Origin: Mucilaginibacter boryungensis
GTDB taxonomy: Bacteria; Bacteroidota; Bacteroidia; Sphingobacteriales; Sphingobacteriaceae
Length of the DNA stretch: 64,000 nt
Reading direction: 5' to 3'
NCBI RefSeq assembly: GCF_015221995.1
Contig: NZ_JADFFM010000001.1
Location: 620,001 to 684,000, forward strand
How positions within the stretch are numbered: position 1 is the first letter of the stretch; each line of letters begins with the position of its first letter. Of the stretch, positions 7,096 to 47,710 are shown piece after piece. A model generated the notes under the pieces. That model worked only from the letters and a program-made list of their open reading frames with translations, did not search any database and had not been told where the DNA came from. The translations under genes and the position numbers were made by a program.

Positions 7096-7104
7096 ATTTA
7101 AGTG

Positions 7105-8493
7105 ATGTTAAAAAGACTTGCTATAACGGCTGCTGCATGCTGTTTACTTTTCTCATTTAAAGGCGACCCGTCGAAGGTTTTGCCACCGTTAAAAATATCC
7201 GCCAACCACCGCTATTTTACTGCTGATGGTAAACCATTTTTTTGGTTGGGCGATACAGGCTGGCTGCTGTTCAGTAAAATGAAGCGGGCCGAAGCGTTTG
7301 AATACCTGGAAACCCGCCGCCAGCAGGGCTTTAATGTGATACAAGTAATGGTGGTGCATAGCATTAAGGAAGTTAATGCCTATGGCGATTCTGCCTTAAC
7401 AGGCAAAAAAATAACTGAGCCTAAAGTTACACCGGGTAATACCTTTGGTAAAGACGATGAGTACGACTATTGGGACCATATAGACTGGATCATTAGCCAG
7501 GCGGCTGACAAGGGCTTGTATGTGGCGCTGGTGCCGGTTTGGGGGTCGGTAGTAAAGGAAGCGCATATTAATCCAGCCCAGGCTAAAGCTTATGCCGAAT
7601 TTTTAGCTAACCGTTACCGCAACCACTCCAACATTATCTGGATGAACGGCGGTGATGTTCCCGGAACAGACTCGCTGCGTACATGGCAGGCTATCGGTAA
7701 TACTATCCACCAGGTTGATCCTGCACACCTGATGACCTTTCACCCACGTGGACGTACGCAATCATCAACTTGGTTCCATAACGAGGAATGGCTGAATTTT
7801 AACTGCTTCCAATCGGGGCACCGCAATTACGCGCAGGATACGTCTAAAAAAGATTTGAACTATGGCGAGGATAACTGGCGCTACGTGCAGGCTGATTACG
7901 CTAAAACACCGGTTAAACCAACGCTGGATGCAGAGCCATCTTACGAAAATATTCCTTATGGTTTGCACGATGTGAAGTTGCCGCGCTGGCAGGCAAACGA
8001 TGTAAGGCGCTATGCTTATTGGTCGGTTTTTGCAGGTGGCTGCGGCTTTACATATGGTAATAACGATGTGATGCAGATGCACAAAGCAGGCGAAAAGGTA
8101 GGTTCCTACGGATCAAAAGACCCCTGGACAAAGTCCATCAACGCGCCGGGCGCCAGGCAAATGGTTTATCTGAAAAAGCTGATGCTATCCCGGCCGTATT
8201 TTGACCGCGTGCCTGACCAGTCATTAATTGCTGCGGGGCAAGGTAAAAGGTATGACAGGCTTATCGCGACACGCGGCAGTAAATATGCCTTTATTTATAC
8301 CTACAATGGCCGTGATATGCAGATAGATGCCAGTAAGCTGGAGGGCAGCAAGTTAAAGGCAACATGGTACGATCCGCGCAACGGGCAAATAACTGTAATA
8401 GGTACGTTTAATAAATCGAAATTGCTTAAATTTAATCCTCCCGGCGAGAAAATGAACGGCAACGATTGGGTGCTGATACTGGACGCTGTATAA
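7105..8493 (+). CDS. GH140 family, probable apiosidase acting on rhamnogalacturonan II
   Basis: GH140 (DUF4038 TIM barrel plus a C-terminal collagen-binding-like domain) is known for hydrolysing the apiose-GalA linkage that anchors RG-II side chains A and B. I use ATG 7105 (GTG at 7102 is the alternative). A hydrophobic leader is present at residues 1-20. The barrel starts with YFTADGKPFFWLGDTGWLLF. The two likely catalytic acids are Asp about 184 in WMNGGD and Glu about 277 in LDAEPSYE, close in position to the pair I recall for the characterised Bacteroides enzyme. The smaller C-terminal domain (from about 375) ends in DWVLILD. Ten bases separate it from the genes on either side. This is the most diagnostic gene for an RG-II target. 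Confidence 0.85.
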   Translation: MLKRLAITAAACCLLFSFKGDPSKVLPPLKISANHRYFTADGKPFFWLGDTGWLLFSKMKRAEAFEYLETRRQQGFNVIQVMVVHSIKEVNAYGDSALTGKKITEPKVTPGNTFGKDDEYDYWDHIDWIISQAADKGLYVALVPVWGSVVKEAHINPAQAKAYAEFLANRYRNHSNIIWMNGGDVPGTDSLRTWQAIGNTIHQVDPAHLMTFHPRGRTQSSTWFHNEEWLNFNCFQSGHRNYAQDTSKKDLNYGEDNWRYVQADYAKTPVKPTLDAEPSYENIPYGLHDVKLPRWQANDVRRYAYWSVFAGGCGFTYGNNDVMQMHKAGEKVGSYGSKDPWTKSINAPGARQMVYLKKLMLSRPYFDRVPDQSLIAAGQGKRYDRLIATRGSKYAFIYTYNGRDMQIDASKLEGSKLKATWYDPRNGQITVIGTFNKSKLLKFNPPGEKMNGNDWVLILDAV

Positions 8494-8503
8494 ACCAAAT
8501 AAA

Positions 8504-9436
8504 ATGAACCGTGCTTTTAAATATTTGCTGACTGGTTTCACCGCCATGGTTTTGCTATCGTGCAAAAGCACAAAAAGCGTGTATGTTTTCACATCCTTCC
8601 ACGAACCGGCTAACGAGGGCTTAAGGTTCCTTTACAGTTACGATGCTTATCATTGGAATGACCTTAACCACATTTACCTGAAACCAGAAGTTGGTGACGC
8701 TAAAATAATGCGCGACCCATCTATTTGCCAGGGGCCTGATGGTACCTTCCACTTGGTGTGGACTACTGGCTGGAAAGATGATAAAGGCATTGGTCATGCC
8801 AGTTCAAAAGATCTGGTGCATTGGTCGCCGGAGGAGCATATTGATGTGATGGGTTACGAGCCGACTGCCAAAAACGCCTGGGCACCCGAGTTGTTTTATG
8901 ATGATGAGGCCGGGCAATACATTATTGTTTGGGCATCGTGCATTCCATTCCGTTTTCCCAAAGGAGAAGAACCCGAGGATAACAATCACCGGCTATATTA
9001 TACCACTACTAAGGATTTTAAAACCTTTGCGCCAACTAAATTATTTCTTGATCCTGGCTTCAGCGTGATCGATGCCGAAATACTAAAACGAGGTAAAAAC
9101 GATTATGTGCTGGTAATGAAAGATAATACCCGGCCCAACCGCAATATCCTGGTGGCATTTGCCAGCAACCCGCTGGGGCCATATCACGATTACAGTAAAC
9201 GGTTTACGGAGTTGTTTAGCGAGGGGCCATCAGCAATTAAAGCGGGTGATAATTGGTTGATCTATTACGACTCATACCGACTGAAACGTTACGGCGCTAT
9301 GCGCACCACCGACTTTAAAACCTTTACCGATATAGCCGACAGCGTAAAAGTACCCGAGGGACACAAGCACGGCACCATTTTTAAAGTGAGCAAAAAAGTA
9401 TTGGCCGGCCTTAAACAAGCCGCAGGCCAACCATGA
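8504..9436 (+). CDS. GH43-like five-bladed propeller glycosidase, lipoprotein
   Basis: Probable exo-acting arabinosidase/xylosidase/galactosidase of the GH43 type (310 residues, single propeller domain). The N-terminus is a lipoprotein signal with LLSC, Cys 20, so the enzyme is membrane-anchored. The three GH43 acids are plausibly Asp 71 (MRDPSICQ, base), Asp 190 (VIDAEILK, pKa tuner) and Glu 240 (SEGPSAIKAG, acid). No extra binding module is present. Substrate cannot be read from sequence. In an RG-II locus, arabinose or a similar side-chain residue is likely. The stop codon is 6 bp before the next start. Confidence 0.8.
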   Translation: MNRAFKYLLTGFTAMVLLSCKSTKSVYVFTSFHEPANEGLRFLYSYDAYHWNDLNHIYLKPEVGDAKIMRDPSICQGPDGTFHLVWTTGWKDDKGIGHASSKDLVHWSPEEHIDVMGYEPTAKNAWAPELFYDDEAGQYIIVWASCIPFRFPKGEEPEDNNHRLYYTTTKDFKTFAPTKLFLDPGFSVIDAEILKRGKNDYVLVMKDNTRPNRNILVAFASNPLGPYHDYSKRFTELFSEGPSAIKAGDNWLIYYDSYRLKRYGAMRTTDFKTFTDIADSVKVPEGHKHGTIFKVSKKVLAGLKQAAGQP

Positions 9437-9442: not shown

Positions 9443-11284
9443 ATGAGCAGGAAGATAGCGATAACGATATTAAGTTTTGTAAGCCTGGCGTTTGCTACCC
9501 ATGCGCAGGATACCGTGCATTATACCGGGAATACGGTGGTGAATGTGGATTATCACGATGGGCGGTTAACCCCGGCGGTAGGTGTGCACAATATGCAGAT
9601 ATTCCGTGCCAACCGTGAGCATCCTGAACTGGCTGAAGGCTTTGGTTTTACTTATAACCATGCCCCCATGCTGGCTTACTGGAACAACACTTTTTATGTA
9701 GAATACCTGAGCGATAAAGTAGGAGAGAGCGTTCCACCGGGACAAACGCTGCTCATTACCTCAAAAGACGGCCAAAACTGGAGCAAGCCCGAAGTTATTT
9801 TTCCTCAGTATAAAATACCTGACGGTACAACTAAAGAAGGCCACACGCAGGTAGCTAAAGACCTGTATTCGGTAATGCATCAGCGGATGGGTTTTTATAC
9901 TTCCAAATCTAAACGCTTGCTGGTGCTGGGCTTTTATGGGATAGTATTAGAACCGCATGACGACCCTAATGATGGGTTGGGCATTGGCCGCGTTGTCCGC
10001 GAAGTTTTACCCAATGGTAAGTATGGCCCCATCTATTTTATCCACTACAACCCTAAATGGAACGAAAAAAACACCTCGTACCCGTTTTACAAAACCAGCA
10101 AGGATAAAGGTTTTGTACAAGCCTGCGATGAGTTAATGGCCAATCCCTTAATGATGATGCAATGGGTGGAAGAAACCGACCGGAAAGATCCGTTGATCCC
10201 ACTGCATAAGGAATATAAGGCGTTTAGTTTTTATCACCTGCCGGATGGGAGGGTAGTGGGGTTATGGAAAAACGGCCTGACCGCCATCAGTAAAGATAAT
10301 GGCAAAACCTGGCCGACTAATGCCACCCGTGCACCGCGCATAGTAACCAGCAATGCCAAAATATGGGGCCAGCGCACATCTGATGGTAAATATGCTACCG
10401 TATACAATCCGTCGGAATTCAGATGGCCGCTGGCGGTATCGGTAAGTAAAGATGGACTGGATTATACCAACCTGCTGCTGGTAAACGGCGAGATATCAAC
10501 CATGCGTTATGGGGGTGCTTATAAATCATACGGGCCGCAGTATACCCGTGGTATTATTGAAGGCAACGGCGTAGTACCCGATGGCAAGTTGTGGGTAACC
10601 TACAGCATGAACAAGGAAGATATTTGGGTATCCAGCATCCCCGTGCCTATCACCGATATGGCCGATGGCCCGGCTAATGATGATTTTAATGCACTGCCTG
10701 CTGGTCACGAGCTGGACAAATGGAATACGTTTAGTCCGCTGTGGGCAAAGGTTGAAATAGAAAAAATGAGCGATGGTACGAAGGCTTTAGCACTGAACGA
10801 CCACGACCCATTTGACTACGCCCGTGCCGAACGTGTGGTGCCCGAAGGTAAACGCATGTCGGTTGATTTTACGTTGGTGCCGGGACAAAATAATACCGGT
10901 ATGCTGGATATAGAATTCCAGGATGCAAAAGGTAACGCAGCCATCAGGCTAACGCTTGATTCAACGGGGGCATTTATCACTAAGGCGGGGTATCGCAACA
11001 AAAACCTGATGAAATATGAGGCAAATAAGCCGCTGCACATCATTTTGAAACTAAATACTGATACCCGTTTTTACAGTCTGAACATTAATGGAAAAGATTT
11101 GGCGCCCAACCTGTTCTTCGCGCCGGTATTGGCGATAAAAAGGGTGGTGTTCCGCACAGGCAGCGTGCGCCGTTTCCCTGATGCGGATACCCCAACCGAT
11201 CAGGATTACGACTTGCCAAAAGCAGGCGAGCAGGCAAAACCAGCGGTATTTTATATCAAATCATTTAAAACAGGAAAATATTAG
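9443..11284 (+). CDS. Exported sialidase-like beta-propeller protein with C-terminal beta-sandwich
   Basis: 613 residues with a signal peptide (cut near FATHAQ, residue 22). Residues about 30-410 form a propeller with Asp-box-like repeats (TSKDGQNWSKPE at about 106, SKDNGKTWP at about 283, SKDGLDYTN at about 335). Residues about 415-613 look like a beta-sandwich (concanavalin-like) domain. Sialidase-fold enzymes hydrolyse 2-keto-3-deoxy acid glycosides. RG-II contains two such sugars, Kdo and DHA, and the DHA hydrolase family GH143 is my preferred but unproven assignment. It lies between GH43 and an esterase in the same transcript. The function remains inference; it could instead be an uncharacterised family. 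Confidence 0.6.
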   Translation: MSRKIAITILSFVSLAFATHAQDTVHYTGNTVVNVDYHDGRLTPAVGVHNMQIFRANREHPELAEGFGFTYNHAPMLAYWNNTFYVEYLSDKVGESVPPGQTLLITSKDGQNWSKPEVIFPQYKIPDGTTKEGHTQVAKDLYSVMHQRMGFYTSKSKRLLVLGFYGIVLEPHDDPNDGLGIGRVVREVLPNGKYGPIYFIHYNPKWNEKNTSYPFYKTSKDKGFVQACDELMANPLMMMQWVEETDRKDPLIPLHKEYKAFSFYHLPDGRVVGLWKNGLTAISKDNGKTWPTNATRAPRIVTSNAKIWGQRTSDGKYATVYNPSEFRWPLAVSVSKDGLDYTNLLLVNGEISTMRYGGAYKSYGPQYTRGIIEGNGVVPDGKLWVTYSMNKEDIWVSSIPVPITDMADGPANDDFNALPAGHELDKWNTFSPLWAKVEIEKMSDGTKALALNDHDPFDYARAERVVPEGKRMSVDFTLVPGQNNTGMLDIEFQDAKGNAAIRLTLDSTGAFITKAGYRNKNLMKYEANKPLHIILKLNTDTRFYSLNINGKDLAPNLFFAPVLAIKRVVFRTGSVRRFPDADTPTDQDYDLPKAGEQAKPAVFYIKSFKTGKY

Positions 11285-11287
11285 CAG

Positions 11288-12745
11288 ATGAAAAGAAGTG
11301 GTGTAGTTGCTGTGTTAATATTGCTGTTATGCTGCTTTGGTGGCTATGCCGAAGTGGTACTGCCTAAAATATTGGGTAATGGTATGGTATTGCAGCGCGA
11401 GAAACCTGTACCTATTTGGGGAACTGCTGCTGCGGGTGAAAAGGTTACTGTTAAGTTCAATAAACAAACTAAAACAACAACTGCCGATGCCGCAGGAAAC
11501 TGGAAGTTAATGCTTGATGCCATGCCGGCATCGGCTAAAGGCGCCACCTTAACCATTTCAGGTACAAATACCATTAAGCTTACCGATATTTTGGTGGGTG
11601 AAGTTTGGTTGTGTTCAGGGCAGTCGAATATGTTGTACGAGATGCGCAAGAACAGTAAAGTGAACAAGCCCGATACTATGACCACGGCCTATTCGCCGGT
11701 TGATGAGATCGAGCACGCTCATAATCCGCAGATACGAATATTTTTGGTGACGCAGAAAAACCTGGCCAAGCCCGATTCTACCCATTCGGGCTGGAGCATC
11801 GCGCAGGATTCGGCTTTGCGGGCATTTTCGGCAGCAGGTTACTTCTTCGCCAAAAACTTAAATCACGATTTAAATGTACCCGTGGGCGTAGTTTGCGCGG
11901 CCGTAAGCGGCAGCCGCATTGAGCCCTGGATACCCGAAACGGCATTTGCTGAGTCGCCCTATTTTAAACGGGTAAGTAAAGATTCGGCCCAGGTAAGCGG
12001 TGCCGATGGTAAATTCTGGCACCGTATGATCTCACCCTTAGCGCCATTGGCTATCCGCGGCTTTTTATGGTACCAGGGCGAAGCTAATATGACAGAAACA
12101 GTTAGCTACATCCACAAAATGCAGTTGCTGATCAACAGCTGGCGCGATGCCTGGCATGAACCGACCATGCCGTTTTATTACGTGGAGATCGTGCCGTACT
12201 ACTATTCTAAAATGAAAAGTACGGTAACCATTAGCCCGCAAATGCTGCCCCGGTTTTGGGAAACACAAAGCCAGGTACAAAACATCCCCAACACAGGCAT
12301 GATCATCACTACCGATTTAAACGATGACGTTAAAAACCTGCACCCGCCATTTAAATGGGAAGTAGGCAGGCGCCTGGAATTGCTGGCTTTAGCCAAAACC
12401 TACAAAAAGCCGGTGGTGTATTCAGGCCCGGTTTATAAGCAAATGCACAGCAGCGAAAACAAAATTATATTAGAATTTACAGGCGTAAGTAAAGGATTGA
12501 TCAGCCGCGATGGCAAGCCGCTTAACTATTTTACCATAGCCGGGACTGATGGCGTATTTGTTGATGCCAACGCTGTAATTAAAGGTAATACAATTGAGGT
12601 TTCAACCCCCTCAGTAAGCAAACCAACCGCGGTGCGCTTCGCCTGGAGCGAAGATGCCCAGCCTAATTTTTACAATAAAGATGGTTTCCCTGCCGCGCCT
12701 TTCCGCACGGATAACCCTTTGAAATTTAACCCAACCGATAACTAA
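11288..12745 (+). CDS. SGNH hydrolase of the sialate O-acetylesterase type
   Basis: Carbohydrate O-acetylesterase of 485 residues that removes acetyl groups blocking other enzymes; RG-II carries acetyl groups on aceric acid and methylfucose. A signal peptide is seen at 1-21. An N-terminal beta-sandwich (about 25-105) precedes the SGNH fold: block I GQSNM with nucleophile Ser 113, the block II region CAAVSGSRIEPW (about 203), block III WYQGEAN (about 261-267), and the catalytic Asp/His region DDVKNLHPP with His 352. Its start is 3 bp after the previous stop, so the genes are probably co-translated. Family could be CE6- or CE20-like; I cannot separate them here. Confidence 0.82.
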   Translation: MKRSGVVAVLILLLCCFGGYAEVVLPKILGNGMVLQREKPVPIWGTAAAGEKVTVKFNKQTKTTTADAAGNWKLMLDAMPASAKGATLTISGTNTIKLTDILVGEVWLCSGQSNMLYEMRKNSKVNKPDTMTTAYSPVDEIEHAHNPQIRIFLVTQKNLAKPDSTHSGWSIAQDSALRAFSAAGYFFAKNLNHDLNVPVGVVCAAVSGSRIEPWIPETAFAESPYFKRVSKDSAQVSGADGKFWHRMISPLAPLAIRGFLWYQGEANMTETVSYIHKMQLLINSWRDAWHEPTMPFYYVEIVPYYYSKMKSTVTISPQMLPRFWETQSQVQNIPNTGMIITTDLNDDVKNLHPPFKWEVGRRLELLALAKTYKKPVVYSGPVYKQMHSSENKIILEFTGVSKGLISRDGKPLNYFTIAGTDGVFVDANAVIKGNTIEVSTPSVSKPTAVRFAWSEDAQPNFYNKDGFPAAPFRTDNPLKFNPTDN

Positions 12746-12750
12746 TCCTT

Positions 12751-15552
12751 ATGAAAACTGCCGGATATAAATTACTACTGTTTGCTGTGCTGATCTTATC
12801 AGCCATAACTACCCGCGCCCAGGAAACGCAAAAAATATTCCTGAGCGGTACCGGCAGCGATCGTACCGTAAACTGGCAATTCTTTTGTACCGAAGGCCGT
12901 AATTCGGGCAAATGGACAACCATTCCCGTGCCCTCAAACTGGGAGTTGCAAGGCTTTGGTAAATACAACTACGGGTTGGATAAGGACAGCCTTAAAGGCC
13001 GTGAGAAAGGCTTGTACAAGCACGAATTTATGGTGCCGGCCAACTGGCAGGGCAAAGCTATCAATATTGTTTTTGATGGCGTAATGACCGATACAGAAGT
13101 TAAAATAAACGGCAAACCGGCAGGCGATATGCACCAGGGTTCATTCTACCGTTTTAAATATGATATCAGTAAATTATTAAACTACGGCAAAACCAATTTG
13201 CTGGAAGTAACTGTCGCCAAATATTCGGCCAATCCATCAGTTAACAACGCTGAACGTAAAGCTGATTTTTGGGTGTTCGGTGGCATATTTCGCCCGGTAT
13301 TTTTGGAAGTTTTCCCTGTGGCGCACATCAAACAGCAAGCGGTAAATGCCCGCGCTACCGGCGCTTTTGATGCGGTATTACAATTGGCTAATGCTAAAGC
13401 CGGCACAGTAACCGGACAGATTTATACTTTATCAGGACAAAAATTTGGCCCGGTATTTTCGACAAAAATAAATGCGGGCGATACGGCAGCTCATTTGAGG
13501 GCGGCTATCAAATCACCCAAATTATGGTCGCCAGAGTTTCCTAATCTTTATAATGTGGTATTTACCCTAAACCAGGGTGGGAAGATTGTGCACACTGTAA
13601 AACAACGTTTCGGCTTCCGTACGGTTGAACTGCGCGTGCACGATGGAATTTACGTGAACAATGTAAAGATCAAATTCAAAGGGGTTAACCGTCACTCGTT
13701 TTGGCCAACAACAGGCAGGGCTATGAATAAAACCCAAAGCATTGCCGATGTGAAAATGATCAAAGATATGAACATGAATGCGGTGCGGATGTCGCATTAT
13801 CCACCCGATGATCATTTCCTGGATGCCTGCGATTCATTAGGTCTTTTTGTGTTAGACGAGCTAACCGGCTGGCACGGCAATTACGATACTAAAGTGGGTG
13901 CCAAACTGGTGCATGAAATGATTGCTAAAGATGTAAATCACCCGGCTATAGTAATTTGGGATAACGGCAACGAGGGCGGTTTTAATCTTGAGCTTGACCA
14001 CCTGTTTGGCGAACTGGATATACAGCAACGCCCGCTTATCCACCCATGGACAATATTCAACGGCACCAACACACAGCATTATATCAACTACGATTATGGC
14101 ACCGCAACAAACTTCCACGGTCACGATGTAACTTTCCCAACAGAGTTTCTGCATGGCTTATATGATGGTGGCGCAGGTGCGGGCTTGGATGATTTTTGGG
14201 AACTGATGTGGCATACACCGCTTTCAGCTGGTGGTTTCATTTGGGTTTTTGCTGATGAGGACGTTGTGCGTACCGATAAAAACGGTGAACTGGATTCGGA
14301 TGGCGACCACGCGCCCGACGGTATTGTTGGCCCTTATCATGAAAAAGAAGGCAGCTATAACGCCATTAAGGAAATTTGGTGCCCGGTACGCCTTGATTCC
14401 CGCGAAATTACTCCCCGGTTTGATGGAAAATTGCATTTGGAGAACCGCTATTTCTATACCAATTTGAAGCAGTGTACTTTTAGTTATAAGCTTACCAAAC
14501 TGGCTAATCCATATCAAAAAATTGCACCAGATACCAAAACTGGCACCATTACAGCGCCCGATGTGGCTCCGGGTCAATATGGTTACCTACAAATGGCATT
14601 ACCCGCAGGCTGGCAAAATTACGATGTGTTATACATGACGGCTTACGGCCCTGATAAACGCGAACTATACACCTGGAGCTGGCCTATTACCGGGCACCAG
14701 GCAATTACCGCCCGTATGGTTACTAAAACCGGCGGCAGCAAACCTGTGATTACCACAACCGACTCGCTGTATAAAGTGAGCGCTAATGGTATAAACCTTG
14801 AATTTAGCCGTAACAGTGGTGTGCTGGTAAAAGTTAAAAATGCTAAGGGTGAGATACCGTTCAATAATGGACCTGTCCTTGCCGAGGGCGGCGAGAAAAC
14901 AGGCTTCAAGCAACTGAACTATCATTACGAAAACAATAATCTGGTAGTTGAGGGCGAGTTTGAGAAAAAAGCAAATGCCGCGCAATTAAAATGGACGATA
15001 TACCCTTCGGGTTGGGTTGAACTGGCCATGCGCTACTGGCCCGTAGGCGAGGAAGGCAATTTGTTAGGCATCAGTTTTTCCTATCCTGAAAAGGATGTTA
15101 AAGGGGTTATGTATATGGGCGATGGCCCTTATCGCGTTTGGAAAAACCGGATGAAAGGCGTTACATTGAATGTTTGGGATAAAAAATACAATAACACCAT
15201 AACAGGCAATCCTGAACCGAAGATAGAATATCCGGAATTCAAGGGGTATTATTCAAACCTGTACTGGCTGAAGCTGCAAACTACCGGTCAGCCGGTAACC
15301 ATTGTTTGTGATAACCAGGATGTATTTATGCGCCTGTTTACCCCGGCCAACCCTAAAAAGGTGTACAATACGGCACCGGCGTTCCCATCGGGCGATATCT
15401 CATTTATGAATGGCATCACACCGATTGGAACCAAATCGCAAAAGCCCGAAAAATTGGGTACACAGGGTTTCCCTAATAAATATTTTGATTACTACCGCGA
15501 TATTAACATGGCGTTACATATCACCTTGTATTTCGATTTTTCGGGGAAATGA
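12751..15552 (+). CDS. GH2 glycosidase (beta-galactosidase/beta-glucuronidase type)
   Basis: 933 residues with a signal peptide (ITTRAQ, about residue 24). The order is the GH2 sugar-binding jelly roll (about 55-190), immunoglobulin-like domain (about 190-290), and TIM barrel starting at FGFRTVELRVHDGIYVNN. The barrel holds GVNRHSFWP, the MSHYPPDDHFLDACDSLG segment and the acid/base Glu 408 in DNGNEGG. The nucleophile is probably Glu 465 in FPTEF. A long C-terminal beta-rich part (about 560-933) lacks the LacZ small-chain signature seen in the second GH2 of this locus, so the two are not recent duplicates. Stop and next start overlap (ATGA). GH2 enzymes of RG-II systems act on glucuronate, galactose or arabinopyranose; the choice is open. 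Confidence 0.85.
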   Translation: MKTAGYKLLLFAVLILSAITTRAQETQKIFLSGTGSDRTVNWQFFCTEGRNSGKWTTIPVPSNWELQGFGKYNYGLDKDSLKGREKGLYKHEFMVPANWQGKAINIVFDGVMTDTEVKINGKPAGDMHQGSFYRFKYDISKLLNYGKTNLLEVTVAKYSANPSVNNAERKADFWVFGGIFRPVFLEVFPVAHIKQQAVNARATGAFDAVLQLANAKAGTVTGQIYTLSGQKFGPVFSTKINAGDTAAHLRAAIKSPKLWSPEFPNLYNVVFTLNQGGKIVHTVKQRFGFRTVELRVHDGIYVNNVKIKFKGVNRHSFWPTTGRAMNKTQSIADVKMIKDMNMNAVRMSHYPPDDHFLDACDSLGLFVLDELTGWHGNYDTKVGAKLVHEMIAKDVNHPAIVIWDNGNEGGFNLELDHLFGELDIQQRPLIHPWTIFNGTNTQHYINYDYGTATNFHGHDVTFPTEFLHGLYDGGAGAGLDDFWELMWHTPLSAGGFIWVFADEDVVRTDKNGELDSDGDHAPDGIVGPYHEKEGSYNAIKEIWCPVRLDSREITPRFDGKLHLENRYFYTNLKQCTFSYKLTKLANPYQKIAPDTKTGTITAPDVAPGQYGYLQMALPAGWQNYDVLYMTAYGPDKRELYTWSWPITGHQAITARMVTKTGGSKPVITTTDSLYKVSANGINLEFSRNSGVLVKVKNAKGEIPFNNGPVLAEGGEKTGFKQLNYHYENNNLVVEGEFEKKANAAQLKWTIYPSGWVELAMRYWPVGEEGNLLGISFSYPEKDVKGVMYMGDGPYRVWKNRMKGVTLNVWDKKYNNTITGNPEPKIEYPEFKGYYSNLYWLKLQTTGQPVTIVCDNQDVFMRLFTPANPKKVYNTAPAFPSGDISFMNGITPIGTKSQKPEKLGTQGFPNKYFDYYRDINMALHITLYFDFSGK

Positions 15553-18293
15553 AAAACCGCATCCATATATTAACCCTGCTGGCATTGGTGCTTTTATCCT
15601 ATCAATGCTTTGCCGCTAGTGGCACACAAAACCTGCGCTGCGAAATGCTGGTGAACCCGCAAGGCATTGGCACAACACACCCGCGACTAAGCTGGGAAAT
15701 TACCGGCGATGGCCGCGGCATTATCCAAACTGCTTACCAAATATTGGTAGCCAGCACCCCTATAAAGCTGGCGGCAAACCAGGGCGACCTGTGGGATTCA
15801 CACAAAATGACGTCAGACCGCTCGGTGATGGTAGCCTATGCAGGCAAACTGCTGATGAGTCGCACGGCCTGTTATTGGAAAGTAAAGGTATGGACAACCA
15901 ACGGCGAAAGCGCCTGGAGTAACCCGGCGCAATGGACTATGGGCCTGCTTAACCCCGCCGACTGGAAAGCCAAATGGATAGGTTATGATAACGGCTTCCC
16001 CTGGGATAGCGTTTCTAAATTTTCAAGGCTATCCGCAAGGTATTATCGCAAGCAATTCGATGTCTCCCAAACCATAAAAAAAGCCACGGTTTACGTAGTA
16101 GGCTTAGGTCATTACGAACTGTTTGTGAACGGCAAACAAATCGGTGACCAGGTATTGTCTACCCCGCCAACCGATTATACCGAATCGGTGATCTACAATA
16201 CTTTTGACGTCACTAAAGAAATTAAGCCGGGTACAAACGCCATTGCCACTACCTTGGGTAACGGCAGATTTTTTACCATGCGGCCAAAGTATAAGCCTAA
16301 AAAAATAAAGGAATTTGGCTTCCCCAAAATGCTGCTGCAACTGGAATTGGAGTATACCAACGGCACCAAACAAACCATTGTGAGCGATGGCAGCTGGAAG
16401 TTTACCGCCGATGGCCCAATCCGTACTAACAACGAATACGATGGCGAGGAATACGACGCTACCAAAGAAATGGCGGGCTGGAACCATACAGGGTTTGATG
16501 ACAGTAAATGGCTGAAACCTGAACTGGTGCAAGCTCCGGGTGGGAAGCTGGTACCGCAAATGAATGAGCCTATCCGTGTGGTGAAGCTGGTTAAACCGGT
16601 ATCAATAAAACTGGTCAAACCGGGGATGTATGTGATGGATATGGGGCAGAATATGGCGGGCTGGCTGAATATGAAAGTTACAGGTAACCGGGGACAAAAA
16701 GTGCAGTTACGCTATGCGGAGACTACTAAAGATGGTGAGCTATACGTAACCAACCTGCGCGATGCCAAAGTGACCGACGTATACACCCTAAAAGGTGACG
16801 GCCCGGAAAGCTGGCACCCGGTATTTGTTTATCATGGCTTTCGTTACGTGGAAATTGTGAACTATCCTGGCACCCCAACGGTTGATGATTTTGAAGGCCA
16901 GGTAGTGAATGATGATCTGGAGATTACCGGCAGCTTTGAAACATCAAACGCGTTGGTAAACCGCATTTATCAAAACGCGGTTTGGGGTATACAGGCCAAC
17001 TATAAAGGTATGCCGTTGGATTGCCCTCAGCGTAACGAGCGTATGCCTTGGCTGGCCGACCATGCCACCGGCAGCTATAGCGAAAGCTTTGTGTTTGACA
17101 ACGCCAAACTTTACGCCAAATGGCTGGACGATATTGAACAAGCACAAAAACCAAACGGTTCTATCCCCGATGTGGCCCCTGCTTACTGGAATTACTACAG
17201 CGATAACATGACCTGGCCTGCTACGTACCTGCAGGTAGCCGATATGCTATACCAGCAATATGGCGATAAGGAACCTATTGCTAAGCATTATGCTTCTATG
17301 AAAAAGTGGCTGGCTTACATGCGCACTTTTATGAAGGATTACATTGAAACCAAGGACAAGTATGGCGACTGGTGCGTACCGCCTGAATCGCCGGAATTGA
17401 TCCATTCTAAAGATACCCTGCGCACAACAGATGGGCAGCTAATTGCGACAGCTTACTATTACCGACTGTTGGGCACTATGCAAAAGTTTGCCAAACTACT
17501 GAACAAGCCACAGGATATGCAGGAGTTTGCCGCGCTGGCCGCGAAGATCAAAGCCAGGTTTAATCAAAAATACTTTGATGCGAAAACGGCGCGGTACAGC
17601 AACAATTCGGTAACATCGAACCTGCTGCCTTTGTATTTTGATATGGTTCCGGCGGGTGAGCGCAAAGCTGTCTTTAAAAATATCGACGATAAAATTGTGG
17701 TGGCCAATACCGGGCATATCAGTACCGGGGTAATTGGCACGCAGTGGTTAATGCGCGGGTTGACAGATAATGGTCGCCCGGATATTGCCTGGCATATAGC
17801 TACCAACACTGATTACCCAAGCTGGGGCTATATGGTAAGCAAAGGCGCTACCACATTTTGGGAATTGTGGAACGGCGATACGGCTAATCCATCAATGAAT
17901 TCGCAAAACCATGTAATGCTTTTGGGCGATCTGCTGGTATGGTTTTATGAAGACTTGGCCGGTATCAAATCCGACGCAACGAGCACGGCTTTCAAAAAGA
18001 TCATTATGAAACCGGAAGCGGTTCGTGGACTGGATTTTGTGAACGCCAGTTATCATTCCATCCATGGCTTAATTAAAAGCGACTGGAAAAATATCGGAGG
18101 TAAATTCCATTGGAGCATTACTGTTCCGGCTAATACTACGGCGATGGTTTACGTCCCTGCAAAATCTGCGGAAGCGGTGACTGAAGGCGGTCAAAAAGCA
18201 AATGCGTCAAAAAGTGTGAAATTCATTAAGATGGAAAATGGACGGGCTGTGTTTGAAGTAGGTTCTGGAAATTACGTGTTTGACACTAAATAA
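15549..18293 (+). CDS. GH78 alpha-L-rhamnosidase (multidomain)
   Basis: 914 residues, signal peptide ending at about residue 22 (CFA). It has the full GH78 layout: an N-terminal fibronectin-like domain (NPQGIGTTHPRLSWEI), Bac_rhamnosid N domain (WKAKWIGYD, about 137), the concanavalin-like domain (about 350-450), (alpha/alpha)6 barrel and C-terminal sandwich. The general acid is Glu 497 in DCPQRNERMPW and the base is Glu 772 in ATTFWELWNG. It overlaps the upstream GH2 by 4 bp, so the two are translationally coupled. Rhamnose occurs in several RG-II side chains; the specific linkage is not visible. Confidence 0.92.
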   Translation: MKNRIHILTLLALVLLSYQCFAASGTQNLRCEMLVNPQGIGTTHPRLSWEITGDGRGIIQTAYQILVASTPIKLAANQGDLWDSHKMTSDRSVMVAYAGKLLMSRTACYWKVKVWTTNGESAWSNPAQWTMGLLNPADWKAKWIGYDNGFPWDSVSKFSRLSARYYRKQFDVSQTIKKATVYVVGLGHYELFVNGKQIGDQVLSTPPTDYTESVIYNTFDVTKEIKPGTNAIATTLGNGRFFTMRPKYKPKKIKEFGFPKMLLQLELEYTNGTKQTIVSDGSWKFTADGPIRTNNEYDGEEYDATKEMAGWNHTGFDDSKWLKPELVQAPGGKLVPQMNEPIRVVKLVKPVSIKLVKPGMYVMDMGQNMAGWLNMKVTGNRGQKVQLRYAETTKDGELYVTNLRDAKVTDVYTLKGDGPESWHPVFVYHGFRYVEIVNYPGTPTVDDFEGQVVNDDLEITGSFETSNALVNRIYQNAVWGIQANYKGMPLDCPQRNERMPWLADHATGSYSESFVFDNAKLYAKWLDDIEQAQKPNGSIPDVAPAYWNYYSDNMTWPATYLQVADMLYQQYGDKEPIAKHYASMKKWLAYMRTFMKDYIETKDKYGDWCVPPESPELIHSKDTLRTTDGQLIATAYYYRLLGTMQKFAKLLNKPQDMQEFAALAAKIKARFNQKYFDAKTARYSNNSVTSNLLPLYFDMVPAGERKAVFKNIDDKIVVANTGHISTGVIGTQWLMRGLTDNGRPDIAWHIATNTDYPSWGYMVSKGATTFWELWNGDTANPSMNSQNHVMLLGDLLVWFYEDLAGIKSDATSTAFKKIIMKPEAVRGLDFVNASYHSIHGLIKSDWKNIGGKFHWSITVPANTTAMVYVPAKSAEAVTEGGQKANASKSVKFIKMENGRAVFEVGSGNYVFDTK

Positions 18294-18311
18294 TTACGGG
18301 AAAATATCACC

Positions 18312-19043
18312 ATGAAAAAACTTACAATAACAGGAATTTTAGTAGCGGCGGGTTTGTCGTTCGCCACGATGGTTAATGCGCAGGAAGTATCTAAAATACC
18401 AGCTCCCTTATCCGCGGAAGCGCAAGCCAAAGCGGATGCCGATGTAGATAAAAAAGCCACAGAATATGTAGCCGCCCTAAACCTGACTGATGAGGCCAAA
18501 GCTACCCGGGTAAAGGAAGTGGTTTCTACTCATATGAAAGCCGTGCGCGATTGGAACAACACCCACAACGCCGATATGGTACCAGCTGGTATTAACCCGC
18601 TATCAGGTAAGCCATTAAGCGCTATGGATAGGCAGATCATCGTCAATTCGTCCATCCCTAAATCTGTACATGAAAACCTGATGACCGGCTTACGCAAAGA
18701 CCTGACTGAAGACCAGGTTGAAGTGATACTGGATAAATACACTATTGGCAAAGTAGCGTTCACGCTGAACGGTTATAAGTCCATCGTGCCCGACCTTACC
18801 CCGACCGAGGAAGCCGTGATTTTAGCCAATTTAAAACAGGCCCGCGAGCAGGCGGTCGACTTTAAAAACATCAAACAAATCTCGGCCATATTCGAGATTT
18901 ATAAAACCAAAAACGAGCAATACCTGAACGAGCACGGCCGCAACTGGCACCAATTATATGGCGACTACACCAAAATGATCATCGCAAAAAAAGCCGCCGA
19001 CAAAGCCGCGAAAGAAAAAGCAGAACAGGATAAAAAGAACTAA
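18312..19043 (+). CDS. DUF3826 family exported protein
   Basis: 243 residues, signal peptide ending at about residue 23 (MVNAQ). The mature part is mostly helical and charged, with a conserved-looking HMKAVRDWNNTHN segment, KVAFTLNGYKSIVPDLT in the middle and WHQLYGDYTKMI near the end, followed by a Lys/Ala-rich tail. I recall this family (DUF3826) as recurring in Bacteroidota pectin loci, but its role is unknown. It starts 18 bp after the GH78 stop and 2 bp before a sialidase-like gene. No catalytic motif is recognisable. Confidence 0.75.
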   Translation: MKKLTITGILVAAGLSFATMVNAQEVSKIPAPLSAEAQAKADADVDKKATEYVAALNLTDEAKATRVKEVVSTHMKAVRDWNNTHNADMVPAGINPLSGKPLSAMDRQIIVNSSIPKSVHENLMTGLRKDLTEDQVEVILDKYTIGKVAFTLNGYKSIVPDLTPTEEAVILANLKQAREQAVDFKNIKQISAIFEIYKTKNEQYLNEHGRNWHQLYGDYTKMIIAKKAADKAAKEKAEQDKKN

Positions 19044-19045
19044 AA

Positions 19046-20182
19046 ATGAATAAAAAGACGATATTAACGATAAGTGTGTGGTTGCTGGTATTTGCTGCTT
19101 TTGGACAGATAAATCCGTGGCGAAAAGGCATTGTGACGGATGAATTTATTTACGAAAAAGCCCCTTACCCCGAGTGCCATGCTGCAACCATTGCCGAAAC
19201 GCCGACCGGTTTTGTAGCGGCTTGGTTTGGCGGGACAAAAGAGCGTAACCCCGATGTGTGTATTTGGGTAAGCCGACTGGTTAACGGCAAATGGACGGAA
19301 GCCATTAATGTGGCTGATGGTATCCAGAACGCAACCCTGCGCTACCCTACCTGGAACCCGGTGTTGTTCCAGGTGCCTCATGGCGATCTGTGGCTGTTCT
19401 ACAAGATCGGCCCAAGCCCGTCAACCTGGAAGGGGTACATGAAAACATCTGCCGATGGCGGCAAAACCTGGTCTGCGCAAAAGGCCTTACCTGAAGGTTT
19501 TTTAGGCCCGATAAAGAATAAGCCTGTATTGCTGAACGATGGCACTATCCTATGCCCAACCAGTACCGAAGGCAAAGGCTGGCAGGTGCATTTTGAAGCT
19601 ACAAAAGACCTGGGCAAAACCTGGACAATGATAGGGCCCATCAACGAAATAGGCGGTGAAATGAAGGCTATACAACCCAGCATATTATTTCATAAAGGTG
19701 GCAAGTTGCAGATACTTTGCCGCAGCCAAAATAGAGCAGTGTTAACCTCATGGTCGAACGATAACGGTAAAACCTGGTCGCCGCTGAAGAAAACATCATT
19801 GCCGAATAATAATTCCGGTACCGATGCTGTAACGCTGAAGGATGGCCGCCAGTTGCTGGTTTATAACCATGTACTGCCACCGGGAAAAGAAATTAAAGGA
19901 GCGCGTACGCCACTGAACGTAGCGGTATCTAAAGACGGTGTTAAATGGTATGCAGCCGCTATTTTGGAAGATTCGCCCATCAGCCAGTATTCGTACCCAT
20001 CAGTGATTCAGTCATCGGATGGGATGGTGCATGTGGTTTATACCTGGCGCAGGCAAAAAATAAAACATGTGGTGATTGATCCGGCTAAACTGCAGATGAA
20101 AAAAATTAAGAACGGCATTTGGCCGGCGGTAAAAGGTTATACCCTCCCCGTAGTAACCGGCGAGGTTGACGTAATGAAATAA
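19046..20182 (+). CDS. Sialidase-family (BNR-repeat) exported protein
   Basis: 378 residues with a signal peptide (FAAFGQ, about residue 21) and one six-bladed propeller. Asp boxes are clear: SADGGKTWS (about 135), the degenerate TKDLGKTWT (about 187), SNDNGKTWSP (about 235) and SKDGVKWYA (about 300). The YPECHAATIAE start and the YSYPSVIQSSDGMVHVVYTW end are typical of the BNR_2 group often labelled exo-sialidase. Pectin has no sialic acid, so a 2-keto-3-deoxy sugar (Kdo or DHA of RG-II) or an uncharacterised pectin linkage is more likely. It lies 2 bp after the DUF3826 gene. Confidence 0.75.
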   Translation: MNKKTILTISVWLLVFAAFGQINPWRKGIVTDEFIYEKAPYPECHAATIAETPTGFVAAWFGGTKERNPDVCIWVSRLVNGKWTEAINVADGIQNATLRYPTWNPVLFQVPHGDLWLFYKIGPSPSTWKGYMKTSADGGKTWSAQKALPEGFLGPIKNKPVLLNDGTILCPTSTEGKGWQVHFEATKDLGKTWTMIGPINEIGGEMKAIQPSILFHKGGKLQILCRSQNRAVLTSWSNDNGKTWSPLKKTSLPNNNSGTDAVTLKDGRQLLVYNHVLPPGKEIKGARTPLNVAVSKDGVKWYAAAILEDSPISQYSYPSVIQSSDGMVHVVYTWRRQKIKHVVIDPAKLQMKKIKNGIWPAVKGYTLPVVTGEVDVMK

Positions 20183-22593: not shown

Positions 22594-22620
22594 CTGACCA
22601 TGTACACTCAAAACCAGAAT

Positions 22621-22715
22621 GTCATTTCGAACATAGTGAGAAATCTTATACGATATTCCCATAAACAATGCACCGCGTATAAGATTTCTCCTGTACTACG
22701 CTTCGTCGAAATGAC
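22621..22715. repeat. Palindromic intergenic repeat, family B
   Basis: A 95-bp element with ends GTCATTTCGA / TCGAAATGAC and an inner inverted pair GAAATCTTATACG / CGTATAAGATTTC. It sits between the isomerase-like gene and the beta-helix gene, and its last bases contain the ATG used as start by the latter (22711). Ends match the GTCATnnCGA pattern of the other two families in this window. Confidence 0.85.
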
Positions 22716-24618
22716 ACGGTTTTTTGCTGTTTGTTTTTTCCTTTTCATCATAACCTTTACCGCCAGCGCTGCCGATATCTATGTTGCTAAAAATGGTTCG
22801 GATAAAAATGATGGTACGAAGGAAAGGCCGCTGGCATCGGTAGCTATGGCCTTGCGCAAAGCGCGCGAACTGCGCCGGCTGAACGACCCATCCGTGAAAG
22901 GTGGCATCAGCATTAAAGTTGGCGCGGGCGTTTATCAATTAGAAGAAACCCTGTTCATCCGTCCTGAAGATTCGGGTACGGCTGATAATCCGACAGTAAT
23001 TGAGGGCATAGATGGCGAAGCTGTTTTGAGCGGTGGCATTAATATCCATAACTGGAAAAAGGCTATCGGCATTATTCCCGGTTTGCCTACTGAAGCCAAA
23101 GGCAAAGTTTGGGTGGCCGACGCGCCTATGATAGGTAATGAAAGCTTATTGTTCCGACAGCTATGGGTGAACAACATAAAAGCTACCCGTGCCCGCGATG
23201 TGGACGCGCCGCTAATGAACCGCATATTATCGTGGGATAAAAAGAGTGAAACCTGCTGGATACCTAAAGCCAAAGACATGGATATTAGCCGGGTTAAGGG
23301 CATGGAAATGTTTATTCACCAATGGTGGGCCATTGCTATGCTGAGGATAAAAAATGTACAGGTGCAGGGTGATAGTGTACGTTTATCTTTTTATCAGCCC
23401 GAAAGCCGTGTGGAATCAGAACACCCCTGGCCTGCGCCCTGGATATCGAAGAAAACGGGCAATTCCGCATTTTATCTAACCAACGCCATTCAGTTTTTAA
23501 ATAAGCCGGGCGAATGGTATTTGGATCAACTCCATCAAAAGATCTATTACATCCCCCGCGCAGGTGAAGACATGCGCACCGCTACAGTAACCGCGCCTTA
23601 TTTGGAAACACTGGTAAAAATGCTGGGGACAATTGATAACCCGGTGAGTTATGTACGTTTCAAAAACATCGCGTTTCAGCATAGTACCTGGCTGTTGCCA
23701 TCAAAGCAAGGTTTGGTACCCCACCAGGCGGGTATGTATATGACGGATGCTTACAAGTTGAAAATCCCCGGTACGCTGGATAAAAAAGGTTTGGAAAACC
23801 AGGCCTGGGTTGGCCGCCCGGCGGCGGCTATAACCGTGGCTTACGCCGACCATACCGGCTTTGAAGCCTGCAAGTTTGAACATTTGGCCGCGACAGGTTT
23901 AGATTATCAGCGCGGTACACATGATGATGAAATAAAAGGGAACTTGTTTAAAGATATTGGCGGCACAGGCATAATGGCCGGTGTTTTCTCTGACGAAGGA
24001 CAGGAAGTGCACCTGCCTTACAATCCTAAAGATAAACGGGAGATATGCACTAACGACCGCATTGAAAATAACCTGGTGACCGATGTAACCAACGAGGACT
24101 GGGGCTGTGTAGGCATTGGTGCGGGTTACGTAAAGAACGTTACCATTGTCCATAATGAGGTGTGCGAGGTAAACTACACCGGCATCAGCGTAGGCTGGGG
24201 CTGGACTAAGACCGAAAACGCCCTGCGCGATAACCACATCACCGCTAACAAAATTCACCACTACGCCCGCAATATGTACGATGTGGCGGGTATCTACACC
24301 CTGTCATCGCAAGCGGGAACAGTAATCAGCAATAACAGTATCGACAGTATTTACAAAGCCCCTTACGCGCACGATCCGGTGCATTGGTTTTACCTGTATT
24401 GCGATGAAGGTTCATCCTACATCACCGTGAAAGACAATTGGTGCCCGGCTGAAAAATTCCTAAAGAATGCCAACGGCCCGGGTGATGTGTGGGAGAATAA
24501 TGGTCCGCAGGTAAGTGCTGAAATTAAGAATGCTGCAGGCCTGGAAGCGCCGTATCAATACCTGTTAAAATATAAAGTCACAAACCCGGCTAACCAACCT
24601 ATAAATCATAAAGAATAG
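22711..24618 (+). CDS. Exported right-handed beta-helix protein, GH141-like
   Basis: 635 residues when started at 22711, where a signal peptide (MTRFFAVCFFLFIITFTASAA) begins. An in-frame ATG at 22600 would add 37 residues translated from a repeat element, so I reject it. After the signal come the DIYVAKNGSDKNDGTKERPL opening and GVYQLEETLFI, a common start of parallel beta-helix glycanases, then a beta-sandwich insert and the helix proper, with HDDEIKGNLFKDIGGTGIMAG and HNEVCEVNYTGISVGWGW repeats. GH141 alpha-L-fucosidase of RG-II has this architecture. RG-II side chains carry fucose, so this is a reasonable but unproven assignment. Four bases separate it from the mutarotase-like gene. Confidence 0.75.
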   Translation: MTRFFAVCFFLFIITFTASAADIYVAKNGSDKNDGTKERPLASVAMALRKARELRRLNDPSVKGGISIKVGAGVYQLEETLFIRPEDSGTADNPTVIEGIDGEAVLSGGINIHNWKKAIGIIPGLPTEAKGKVWVADAPMIGNESLLFRQLWVNNIKATRARDVDAPLMNRILSWDKKSETCWIPKAKDMDISRVKGMEMFIHQWWAIAMLRIKNVQVQGDSVRLSFYQPESRVESEHPWPAPWISKKTGNSAFYLTNAIQFLNKPGEWYLDQLHQKIYYIPRAGEDMRTATVTAPYLETLVKMLGTIDNPVSYVRFKNIAFQHSTWLLPSKQGLVPHQAGMYMTDAYKLKIPGTLDKKGLENQAWVGRPAAAITVAYADHTGFEACKFEHLAATGLDYQRGTHDDEIKGNLFKDIGGTGIMAGVFSDEGQEVHLPYNPKDKREICTNDRIENNLVTDVTNEDWGCVGIGAGYVKNVTIVHNEVCEVNYTGISVGWGWTKTENALRDNHITANKIHHYARNMYDVAGIYTLSSQAGTVISNNSIDSIYKAPYAHDPVHWFYLYCDEGSSYITVKDNWCPAEKFLKNANGPGDVWENNGPQVSAEIKNAAGLEAPYQYLLKYKVTNPANQPINHKE

Positions 24619-30581: not shown

Positions 30582-37153
<6,572 letters not shown>

Positions 37154-43275: not shown

Positions 43276-44441
43276 TTATAATCAGGTAAATTGGCTGGCT
43301 GCCAAACTATGGCGGGCCATTGGTAGCTGCCGGGTTTTAAAGTTACATATAATTGGTTGCCTGGCACACTGGTACATATTACACCTGGCGCCATTTGCTT
43401 AACAGGGGTTAGTTTGCTAATATGCATATGCTGCAAAACGGCGGTGGCTGTAGCGCCGCCTTCTATCAATAATTCGTGCAGGGTAATTTGCTGATGGACG
43501 CGGTTTACCAAAAAGCCCATCTTATTGGTAAGCGTACATGGTTCAATACTTTTTTGGCTGGTTGCATTAGGGTGTATAGCCATAATGCAGTTGCCTTTTT
43601 CCTTTAACACGGTAATGATCTGTTGTACGTAGTTTTCGGCGATGGCCGCGGGTATCTTCTCGCCAAAAATAATTTCAGCGGGGATGTACAGTACCGGTAT
43701 ATTGTTCAGCAAACCGTTCTTAATGTTATGGCCGTCTTTATTAAAAGTGCTGCCAAAAACAAATAAACGGGGTGTGTTAAATGTTTTTTCGGGGTGATCA
43801 TCAGCCGATACTGTCGGTTTTAAATAATTAAGCAGGCTGTTAAATAAACCTGCCGCGCCAGCTATCAGGGTTTTGTTATCCAGTTTTTCAACCCAGCGGT
43901 TAAAATCGGCTTCTACAGCTACTTCACCTACAATAATACCAGTAGATGGCAACTGCTGGTGGTTTTTAAGTAGTTGTATACTACCATTGGCGCGCAGCAT
44001 TGTTTTTACATCCGATGATGTTACTGGGAAGCCGGGGTCATTAGCGTAATTGCTTAAATGCACGGGCTTATCCTGATAGTAGTAAATACCGTCGACAATG
44101 GTTTTACCGTGTAGCGGGTTGCCGGGCACTATCAGCGCACGTTGCAATCCCGAGGCTTCCAACTGACTGTTGATCTCGTCCAGCACGTTGCCCCGCAAAA
44201 CCGAGTCTATTTTTTTAAATATTAGCTTTGGCTGAAGCTGCATCAGTTGGCGGGTAAGGTCGGTTATCACCTGTTTGGCTTCAGCAGCAGGCAGCGAGCG
44301 GGTATCGGTGGCGATAATGAGCAGATCGGCATTGCTATTGGTATCTACAATGGTATCAATCTCGGTCTTCAGATGATAATTCAGCCCGATGCCGGCCAGT
44401 TCGGCCGCTCCTGTAAGGTCATCTGCAATAACCGCTATCAT
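43272..44441 (-). CDS. Four-carbon acid sugar kinase (DUF1537 family)
   Basis: 389 residues, cytoplasmic. DUF1537 kinases phosphorylate four-carbon acid sugars such as D-threonate and erythronate at C4. Seen: N-terminal IADDLTGAAELAG substrate-binding motif (residues 5-17), LLIIATDTRS (about 44), FKKIDSVLRGN (about 75-85) and a C-terminal nucleotide-binding GGATATA (about 330). The length is slightly short for the family (about 420). It overlaps both the upstream PdxA2-type gene and the downstream symporter by 4 bp. The established D-threonate route pairs this kinase with PdxA2, as found here. The exact stereoisomer cannot be read from the sequence. Confidence 0.88.
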   Translation of the reverse strand: MIAVIADDLTGAAELAGIGLNYHLKTEIDTIVDTNSNADLLIIATDTRSLPAAEAKQVITDLTRQLMQLQPKLIFKKIDSVLRGNVLDEINSQLEASGLQRALIVPGNPLHGKTIVDGIYYYQDKPVHLSNYANDPGFPVTSSDVKTMLRANGSIQLLKNHQQLPSTGIIVGEVAVEADFNRWVEKLDNKTLIAGAAGLFNSLLNYLKPTVSADDHPEKTFNTPRLFVFGSTFNKDGHNIKNGLLNNIPVLYIPAEIIFGEKIPAAIAENYVQQIITVLKEKGNCIMAIHPNATSQKSIEPCTLTNKMGFLVNRVHQQITLHELLIEGGATATAVLQHMHISKLTPVKQMAPGVICTSVPGNQLYVTLKPGSYQWPAIVWQPANLPDYK

Positions 44442-47595: not shown

Positions 47596-47710
47596 ATGGT
47601 TAAAATAGCAATCAGTAAAAATAGGGAACAATTATACTTTCACTTTCATAGGCCATCCTTGTCGTCATTATTTTTACAGATGTGATAGGATTGTTACCAA
47701 TTTGCCCGAA

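Follow-up and report, generated by a model that had tools for sequence, protein, structure and literature searches.

Two sialidase-like propeller proteins, predicted to release Kdo and DHA, and a putative DHA operon in a rhamnogalacturonan II locus of Mucilaginibacter boryungensis

Gene content of the locus

We analyzed a window of 64,000 nucleotides from the 4.88 Mb genome of Mucilaginibacter boryungensis (contig NZ_JADFFM010000001.1, C1:620001-684000), in which two genes encode sialidase-like propeller proteins amid genes for the breakdown of rhamnogalacturonan II (RG-II), one of the most complex pectins. Plain coordinates refer to the window and those prefixed C1 to the genome; genes are named by their window start coordinates, compared genomes are numbered G### and the loci fetched from them L###. 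Passages of two papers assign 3-deoxy-D-manno-octulosonic acid (Kdo) to RG-II side chain C and 3-deoxy-D-lyxo-heptulosaric acid (DHA, also written Dha) to side chain D (PMC12168206; PMC11288761), and one of these passages states that plant Kdo and Dha are known from RG-II only (PMC12168206). In a passage of a third paper, chain C terminates in rhamnose (Rha) and chain D in arabinofuranose (Araf), in a sentence that puts Dha before Kdo (PMC12282258).

Judged by its sequence, the locus containing genes 9443 and 19046 is an RG-II locus, because gene 37158 exceeds the cut-off of the aceric acid hydrolase model NF049879, and models for apiosidase and for the glycoside hydrolase (GH) families GH141, GH106, GH78 and GH2 match too. 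The two propeller genes and the genes behind this assignment are the following.

7102..8493, + strand: apiosidase-like protein, RG-II marker (PF13204, 386.8 bits)
9443..11284, + strand: GH143-type protein, predicted exo-beta-DHA hydrolase for chain D (PF24067 and PF22585, homology to 5mqr)
12751..15552, + strand: GH2 protein (PF02836, 101.5 bits)
15549..18293, + strand: GH78 alpha-L-rhamnosidase, predicted to remove Rha from Rha-Kdo (PF17389, 369.6 bits)
19046..20182, + strand: BNR_2 sialidase-fold protein, predicted exo-alpha-Kdo hydrolase for chain C (PF13088, 316 bits)
22600..24618, + strand: GH141 protein, presumed RG-II marker (PF21231, 235.5 bits)
33872..37153, + strand: GH106 rhamnosidase-like protein (PF17132, 550.8 bits)
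37158..39182, + strand: aceric acid hydrolase, RG-II marker (NCBIfam NF049879, 1192.6 bits, cut-off 950)

We take the apiosidase-like gene 7102 to belong to GH140, and the role of gene 22600 as an RG-II marker is likewise our assumption.

The two propeller genes

Both propeller genes exist exactly where the original prediction placed them, at 9443-11284 (613 aa) and 19046-20182 (378 aa), each with an ATG start on the + strand. Its description of them as Asp-box genes of very different size and domain make-up was borne out by Pfam and by counts of the pattern [ST]xDxGxx[WFY], taken in a strict and a loose version with shuffled sequences as the control. Gene 19046 has three strict Asp boxes (residues 135, 186 and 237) and one further loose box (295), where shuffled sequences average 0.02 strict and 0.085 loose; gene 9443 has one strict box (283) and three further loose ones (107, 312 and 335), where the shuffled means are 0.05 and 0.24. 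As a control at the genome scale, BNR_2 is not rare, with 15 matching stretches of which two are inside the window. When the families of the two genes were aligned with hhalign, their C-terminal propeller halves matched with a probability of 96.8 and an E-value of 2.8e-10, and R287 of 19046 paired with R327 of 9443 in a common R-x-P-L stretch; 9443 and 19046 are therefore homologous, yet far diverged. No NCBIfam model matched either gene at E<=0.001.

The 9443 protein begins with a signal peptide, as read by eye, followed by the BT_1020-like N-terminal beta propeller PF24067 (416.7 bits against a cut-off of 27, residues 23-258) and the sialidase-like carbohydrate-binding module (CBM) PF22585 (222.5 bits, residues 427-587), with a weak BNR_2 match at 31.5 bits against a cut-off of 31.4. 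The sole PDB sequence that it matched is 5mqr/5mqs (776 bits), and the homology runs over whole domains, from residues 18-611 of 613 in 9443 to residues 21-610 in 5mqr. We take 5mqr/5mqs to be BT1020 of Bacteroides thetaiotaomicron, whose two halves are presumably the founding members of GH143 (the N-terminal half, a DHA hydrolase) and of GH142 (the C-terminal half); the GH143 activity label and the assignment of BT1019 below draw partly on secondary papers. We assign the propeller fold of 9443 from the Pfam match and the 5mqr homology, since a predicted structure built from a 4-row alignment reached a predicted local distance difference test score (pLDDT) of 49 and was not used. An hhalign comparison of GH143 with Bacteroides sialidases gave no credible match. 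The gene lies inside the RG-II locus as marked by the aceric acid hydrolase, apiosidase and GH141 models.

Gene 9443 thus resembles the N-terminal half of BT1020 over its whole length, with the same propeller and sialidase-like CBM, and differs from BT1020 in being free-standing, without the GH142-type half. A GH142-type homologue is present in the same genome as a separate gene ∼27 kb upstream of the window (C1:591217-592629, 540 bits, 50% identity), so that RG-II genes may extend past the window and the genome seems to encode both chain D enzymes, each from its own gene. By comparison, Bacteroides ihuae (G531) and G683 carry a fusion of the GH143-type domain with an MGH1-like domain, which we take to be of the GH142 type. 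Divergent GH143 copies with 41-44% identity to 9443 also occur (L075 7634-9523, L079 10206-12098 and L159 from 9934), and no 19046 ortholog lies near these three within the fetched stretches.

A sialidase fold with an altered pocket

Apart from a signal peptide read by eye, gene 19046 encodes a single BNR_2 domain at residues 56-330. Its direct sequence matches in the PDB are weak (E 1e-5). The AlphaFold2 model (pLDDT 85.3) superimposes on solved sialidases with Z 33.9-36.1 over 298-319 residues at 14-18% identity, among the 50 matches listed, and on 8u5o with Z 36.1 over 310 residues at 2.3 Å, which places the model in the sialidase fold. A Foldseek search returned 5hx0, an uncharacterised Dyadobacter protein, as the top match, with sialidases next.

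In fold, 19046 resembles the GH33 sialidases (NedA 1eur, NanI 2bf6 and the Bacteroides NanH type, Z ∼34-36). Residues R226, R287 and Y315 of 19046 align with R440, R504 and Y535 of a Bacteroides sialidase, the first two of which we take to be triad arginine positions and the third that of the tyrosine nucleophile; an alignment with NanB puts Y317, instead of Y315, at the tyrosine position. Q210 stands opposite a NanB glutamate, presumably the catalytic one, in a region where the alignment with the Bacteroides sialidase is gapped. The N-terminal third could be matched to sialidases by eye only, and there the F/YRIP motif that carries the first triad arginine was not found—the stretch reads ECHAAT, with H45 at that place—while the position of the acid/base aspartate appears to be Phe61, with the conserved E66 and D70 close by. 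The canonical FRIP arginine, acid/base aspartate and glutamate thus appear to be replaced by His45, Phe61 and Gln210, a departure from a canonical sialidase that counts against the predicted Kdo hydrolase. The arginine/acid pocket that the original prediction had named as decisive was therefore found in part: R226, R287 and a tyrosine line up, so the carboxylate pocket is partly kept, but the other three positions do not, and the label of a canonical sialidase would be wrong.

We regard it as very improbable that either gene encodes an ordinary sialidase with sialic acids as its substrate. The fold of 19046 and a SASA-domain neighbour would agree with such a role, but the genes sit in an RG-II locus, 19046 is without the FRIP motif and 9443 is BT1020-like. 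In accordance with the original prediction of a locus without sialic acid, no sialic-acid-specific gene was noticed among the 29 window proteins scanned against Pfam, where the SASA and dihydrodipicolinate synthase (DHDPS) matches are unspecific. We rejected an ordinary sialidase for both genes, on the BT1020-like character of 9443 and the altered pocket of 19046.

Natural fusions and gene linkage

Homologues of 19046 in G444, G531 and G683 form the C-terminal domain of proteins of 1260-1274 aa, and in these three fusions Pfam identifies the N-terminal part as GH78. A scan of genome contigs with the B. ihuae domain as the query gave 42 named Bacteroidales loci, 41 of which carry the GH78-BNR_2 fusion as one open reading frame (ORF); at the other, L129 7185-11150 of Phocaeicola sartorii, it is split into three ORFs. 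Compared with the fusions, gene 19046 shows 43-59% identity to the C-terminal domain and the GH78 gene 15549 shows 41-57% identity to the GH78 part, so the fusions resemble 19046 plus 15549, with the difference that here the two are separate genes with a DUF3826 gene in between. An apiosidase-like relative lies in the fetched stretch of 23 of the 42 fusion loci. A table passage of PMC6828813 gives BT_1019, credited to Ndeh et al., as a rhamnosidase of family GH78, and BT1019 is presumably such a GH78-BNR_2 fusion.

The two kinds of fusion therefore each pair two enzymes per disaccharide: GH78 with BNR_2 would match Rha-Kdo, and GH143 with a GH142-type domain would match Araf-DHA. We assign 19046 as a predicted Kdo hydrolase because its relatives are fused to GH78, a partnership that would fit action on Rha-Kdo. 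On chain C, the GH78 protein 15549 would take off L-Rha first and 19046 would then remove alpha-Kdo; on chain D, the GH142-type enzyme encoded upstream of the window would take off L-Araf first and 9443 would then remove beta-DHA.

Gene linkage points the same way. We surveyed 300 genomes of the order, with thresholds of >80 bits for GH143 and >500 bits for a close 19046 ortholog. Of 129 genomes with a GH143 match of any strength, 117 passed, and of 191 with a 19046 match, 115 did. A close 19046 ortholog is found in 115 of the 117 GH143 genomes, at a distance of 4.9-11.2 kb (median 9.6 kb), and no genome of the 300 has such an ortholog without GH143, a count that near relatives inflate. The two exceptions are G118, where the 19046 ortholog is truncated at a contig end, and G266, which has a divergent GH143 (44% identity) and no 19046 ortholog in the stretch fetched around it (20 kb for several genomes, namely G266, G372 and G470). 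At the phylum level, the ortholog lies <20 kb from GH143 in 18 of 21 GH143 genomes; in G561 it is 177 kb off, G484 has a paralog only, on another contig, and no 19046 ortholog was found in G329 at E<=1e-70. Relatives of 19046 are thus linked to both GH143 and GH78, either fused or close by. Of the five BNR_2 hits of B. xylanisolvens, just two, the GH78 fusion and a GH143-sized ORF, lie in polysaccharide utilization locus (PUL) 2.

A further reading is that 19046 is an exo-glycosidase for another RG-II sugar, such as a uronic acid or rhamnose, in a substrate class that it shares with its paralogs. Eight paralogs with 47-57% identity were examined and sit outside RG-II loci. Pfam scans of 10 neighbours place one beside an FGGY kinase with aldolase and short-chain dehydrogenase genes and two beside sulfatases; one paralog (L080 6870-9338) is fused to an alpha-L-fucosidase and an F5/8 domain. 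These paralogs keep nearly all of the candidate catalytic residues of 19046. Counted over 65 rows (57 of the RG-II type and the eight paralogs), H45, E66, Q210, R226, R287 and Y317 are kept in 65/65, all eight paralogs included, and D70 in 64/65. The paralogs, together with the distribution of the fusions, count against a Kdo-specific role. GH143 lies within the fetched stretch in three of the 42 fusion loci (L095, L110 and L132), and in 14 none of the remaining window proteins has a relative there at E<=1e-20 (L094 has almost no flank). In eight Bacteroides genomes, out of those of the 42 loci, the distance from the fusion to a GH143-sized ORF is 11-14 kb in four and 30, 119 and 293 kb in three, with the ORF not listed in one; GH143 was recognised here by the length of the ORF together with a partial match.

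Other observations separate 19046 from its paralogs. In a tree of 65 BNR_2 rows, the eight paralogs split from the other 57 (15 free-standing, 42 fused) with a branch support of 100/95, so that the RG-II-type clade stands apart, although several long branches were warned of and the fused rows are labelled by the fusion and not by genomic context. This tree retained every third of L041-L070 and omitted L091 (same genome as L074), L094, L129 and L133 onward. The RG-II-type copies also differ from most paralogs at N255, K284, S310 and Q314, which largely mark RG-II-type rows; position 255 is Pro in 8/8 paralogs, and Y315 is kept in 57/57 RG-II-type rows and 5/8 paralogs. The fusion to GH78 also speaks against this reading, as GH78 would already take off Rha, and so do the sialidase fold, in which two arginines and a tyrosine occupy sialidase-like places, and the mention of a GH33 Kdo hydrolase among the RG-II enzymes in a passage of PMC11214529. 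For these reasons, we consider another RG-II sugar an unlikely substrate and hold that 9443 and 19046, as a predicted DHA hydrolase and Kdo hydrolase, are a well supported pair: homology, the logic of the fusions and linkage all favour the original proposal of two matching RG-II hydrolases, whose activities are predicted.

A putative operon for DHA catabolism

Next to the RG-II genes lies a group of five genes on the opposite strand, which we read as a putative DHA operon.

41701..43275, - strand: SSF symporter (PF00474, 131.5 bits)
43272..44441, - strand: DUF1537 kinase, predicted threonate kinase (PF07005, 114 bits)
44438..45490, - strand: PdxA-family protein, predicted 4-phospho-threonate dehydrogenase (PF04166, 338.7 bits)
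45487..46419, - strand: aldolase of the DHDPS/N-acetylneuraminate lyase (NAL) type, predicted DHA aldolase (PF00701, 132.9 bits)
46426..47631, - strand: iron-containing alcohol dehydrogenase (Fe-ADH), predicted to reduce a C4 aldehyde acid to threonate (PF25137, 181.8 bits; PF00465, 144 bits)

The D-threonate pathway consists of a DUF1537 kinase and PdxA2. The operon has the same two families side by side and differs in that they stand here with an aldolase and an Fe-ADH, in an RG-II setting, and with scores under the curated cut-offs. Stereochemically, splitting DHA (D-lyxo) between C3 and C4 would give pyruvate and a threo C4 aldehyde acid, the reduction of which would give D-threonate, so the five-gene set fits a route from DHA to pyruvate and D-threonate and on to dihydroxyacetone phosphate (DHAP). 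Along this route, the SSF symporter would import the released DHA, the DHDPS-like aldolase would cleave it to pyruvate and the C4 aldehyde acid (threuronate), the Fe-ADH would reduce the latter to D-threonate, and the DUF1537 kinase with PdxA would turn D-threonate into DHAP and CO2. In the aldolase, GTTGE, YNIP and the Lys of KDSE are invariant across 21 operon copies.

The distribution of the operon follows that of GH143. Among the 300 genomes of the order, 37 have a DUF1537 match at E<=1e-50, and GH143 is present in 36 of these 37 (Fisher 1e-15); the two are on one contig in 31 genomes, and <50 kb apart in 25 of these 31. Of the 36 genomes with a DUF1537 match other than that of the window, 20 were examined for synteny, and the order SSF, DUF1537, PdxA, aldolase and Fe-ADH is conserved in 19 of the 20, whereas the GH143-negative genome G160 has the kinase and PdxA only. 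The operon adjoins the 19046 ortholog in L144, L150 and L151, and GH143 in L152 (G231). G329 belongs to another class; its operon lies in a sulfatase-containing locus, ∼9 kb away from a GH143 of 38% identity.

Several observations make this assignment less secure. Gene 43272 scores 128.5 bits with the D-threonate kinase model, whose cut-off is 450, and gene 44438 scores 302.9 bits with the D-threonate-4-phosphate dehydrogenase model, whose cut-off is 583; with the pdxA model TIGR00557 it reaches 329.2 bits, above the cut-off of 290. The DUF1537 kinase is absent at E<=1e-50 from 81 of the 117 GH143 genomes of the order, and elsewhere in the phylum just two of 18 additional GH143 genomes have it at E<=1e-20. 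In G331, the complete operon is ∼645 kb from GH143, and no GH143 lies in the 20 kb fetched around the five genes of G372 or the four enzymes of G470, two of the five matches in 267 genomes of the phylum. Next to the operon genes of G372 lie those for a BNR_2 protein and a sulfatase, and in G329 a weak BNR_2 protein adjoins GH143 as well.

The last two observations would suit an operon that catabolises Kdo or another 2-keto-3-deoxy acid in place of DHA, as would its direct adjacency to the 19046 ortholog in G273, G294 and G081, the enzymes without a nearby GH143 in G470 and G372, and the inclusion of N-acetylneuraminate lyases among DHDPS/NAL aldolases. Aldol cleavage of Kdo gives D-arabinose, which needs no threonate kinase or PdxA, and in G231 and G329 the operon lies near GH143 with no close 19046 ortholog alongside. 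We therefore judge an operon for Kdo or a related acid improbable. The same two genomes uphold the proposal that 9443, rather than its partner, feeds a DHA pathway.

Taken as a whole, the two propellers are probably exported hydrolases that would release Kdo and DHA, its two 2-keto-3-deoxy sugars, from RG-II, with the neighbouring operon predicted to metabolise the DHA released. With less assurance, though leaning in its favour, we propose that a GH143 hydrolase acting outside the cytoplasm, the SSF symporter, the aldolase, the Fe-ADH, the DUF1537 kinase and PdxA make up a complete, previously undescribed pathway of DHA catabolism, and that related modules point to DHA-type sugars elsewhere. 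Such modules of related enzymes are found in sulfatase-rich loci of another class (L153 14227-20000 and L081 1-16100, both of G329, and L172 of G372), where they perhaps indicate DHA-type sugars in sulfated, possibly algal, polysaccharides.

Relation to published work and significance

In published passages, a 'Kdo hydrolase (GH33)' is counted among the enzymes required to break down RG-II (PMC11214529), a Kdo hydrolase is included among the GH33 activities (PMC9120202), and PUL 2 of B. xylanisolvens, assumed to target RG-II, contains GH28, GH33, GH43 and GH78 (PMC4769552); that passage does not name the gene for the GH33 of PUL 2, which is the homologous locus. The matches listed for Kdo hydrolases are mostly work on lipopolysaccharide. 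Since a GH33 Kdo hydrolase for RG-II is published, the enzyme pair itself is not new; the enzymes are of known kinds, and the operon could be the new part. A literature search for a DHA aldolase or DHA catabolism returned no such pathway among the matches listed, with subscription literature mostly outside the search.

With a free-standing pair, and with natural fusions that supply the substrate logic, small proteins would suffice to test each linkage directly. If the operon is a DHA pathway, it would account for the fate of DHA carbon and tie the threonate chemistry of DUF1537 and PdxA to a plant polysaccharide. Likewise, the altered sialidase pocket of this BNR_2 clade would offer a way to distinguish Kdo hydrolases from sialidases by sequence in the annotation of gut and soil data.

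Other genes of the locus

Three further genes lie next to those described above.

8504..9436, + strand: GH43-like protein, directly 5' of the GH143 gene (PF04616, 41.5 bits)
11288..12745, + strand: SASA-domain esterase (PF03629, 75.9 bits)
18312..19043, + strand: DUF3826 protein, between the GH78 and BNR_2 genes (PF12875, 221.6 bits)

A relative of the GH43-like gene adjoins GH143 in L071, L072, L076, L077, L082, L083, L110 and L132, and DUF3826 is a recurrent companion of GH78 and BNR_2 genes (L082, L144, L150, L151 and L160). For the GH2 gene 12751, the top NCBIfam model is exo-beta-1,4-galactosidase BT4156, at 990.7 bits and so under its cut-off of 1700. The RG-II locus also holds a DUF6298 protein (3922-7095) and a DUF5703 protein (39275-41590), both of Pfam families without a stated function, and many Bacteroides loci carry DUF3826 as a fusion with a relative of the 20186 esterase.

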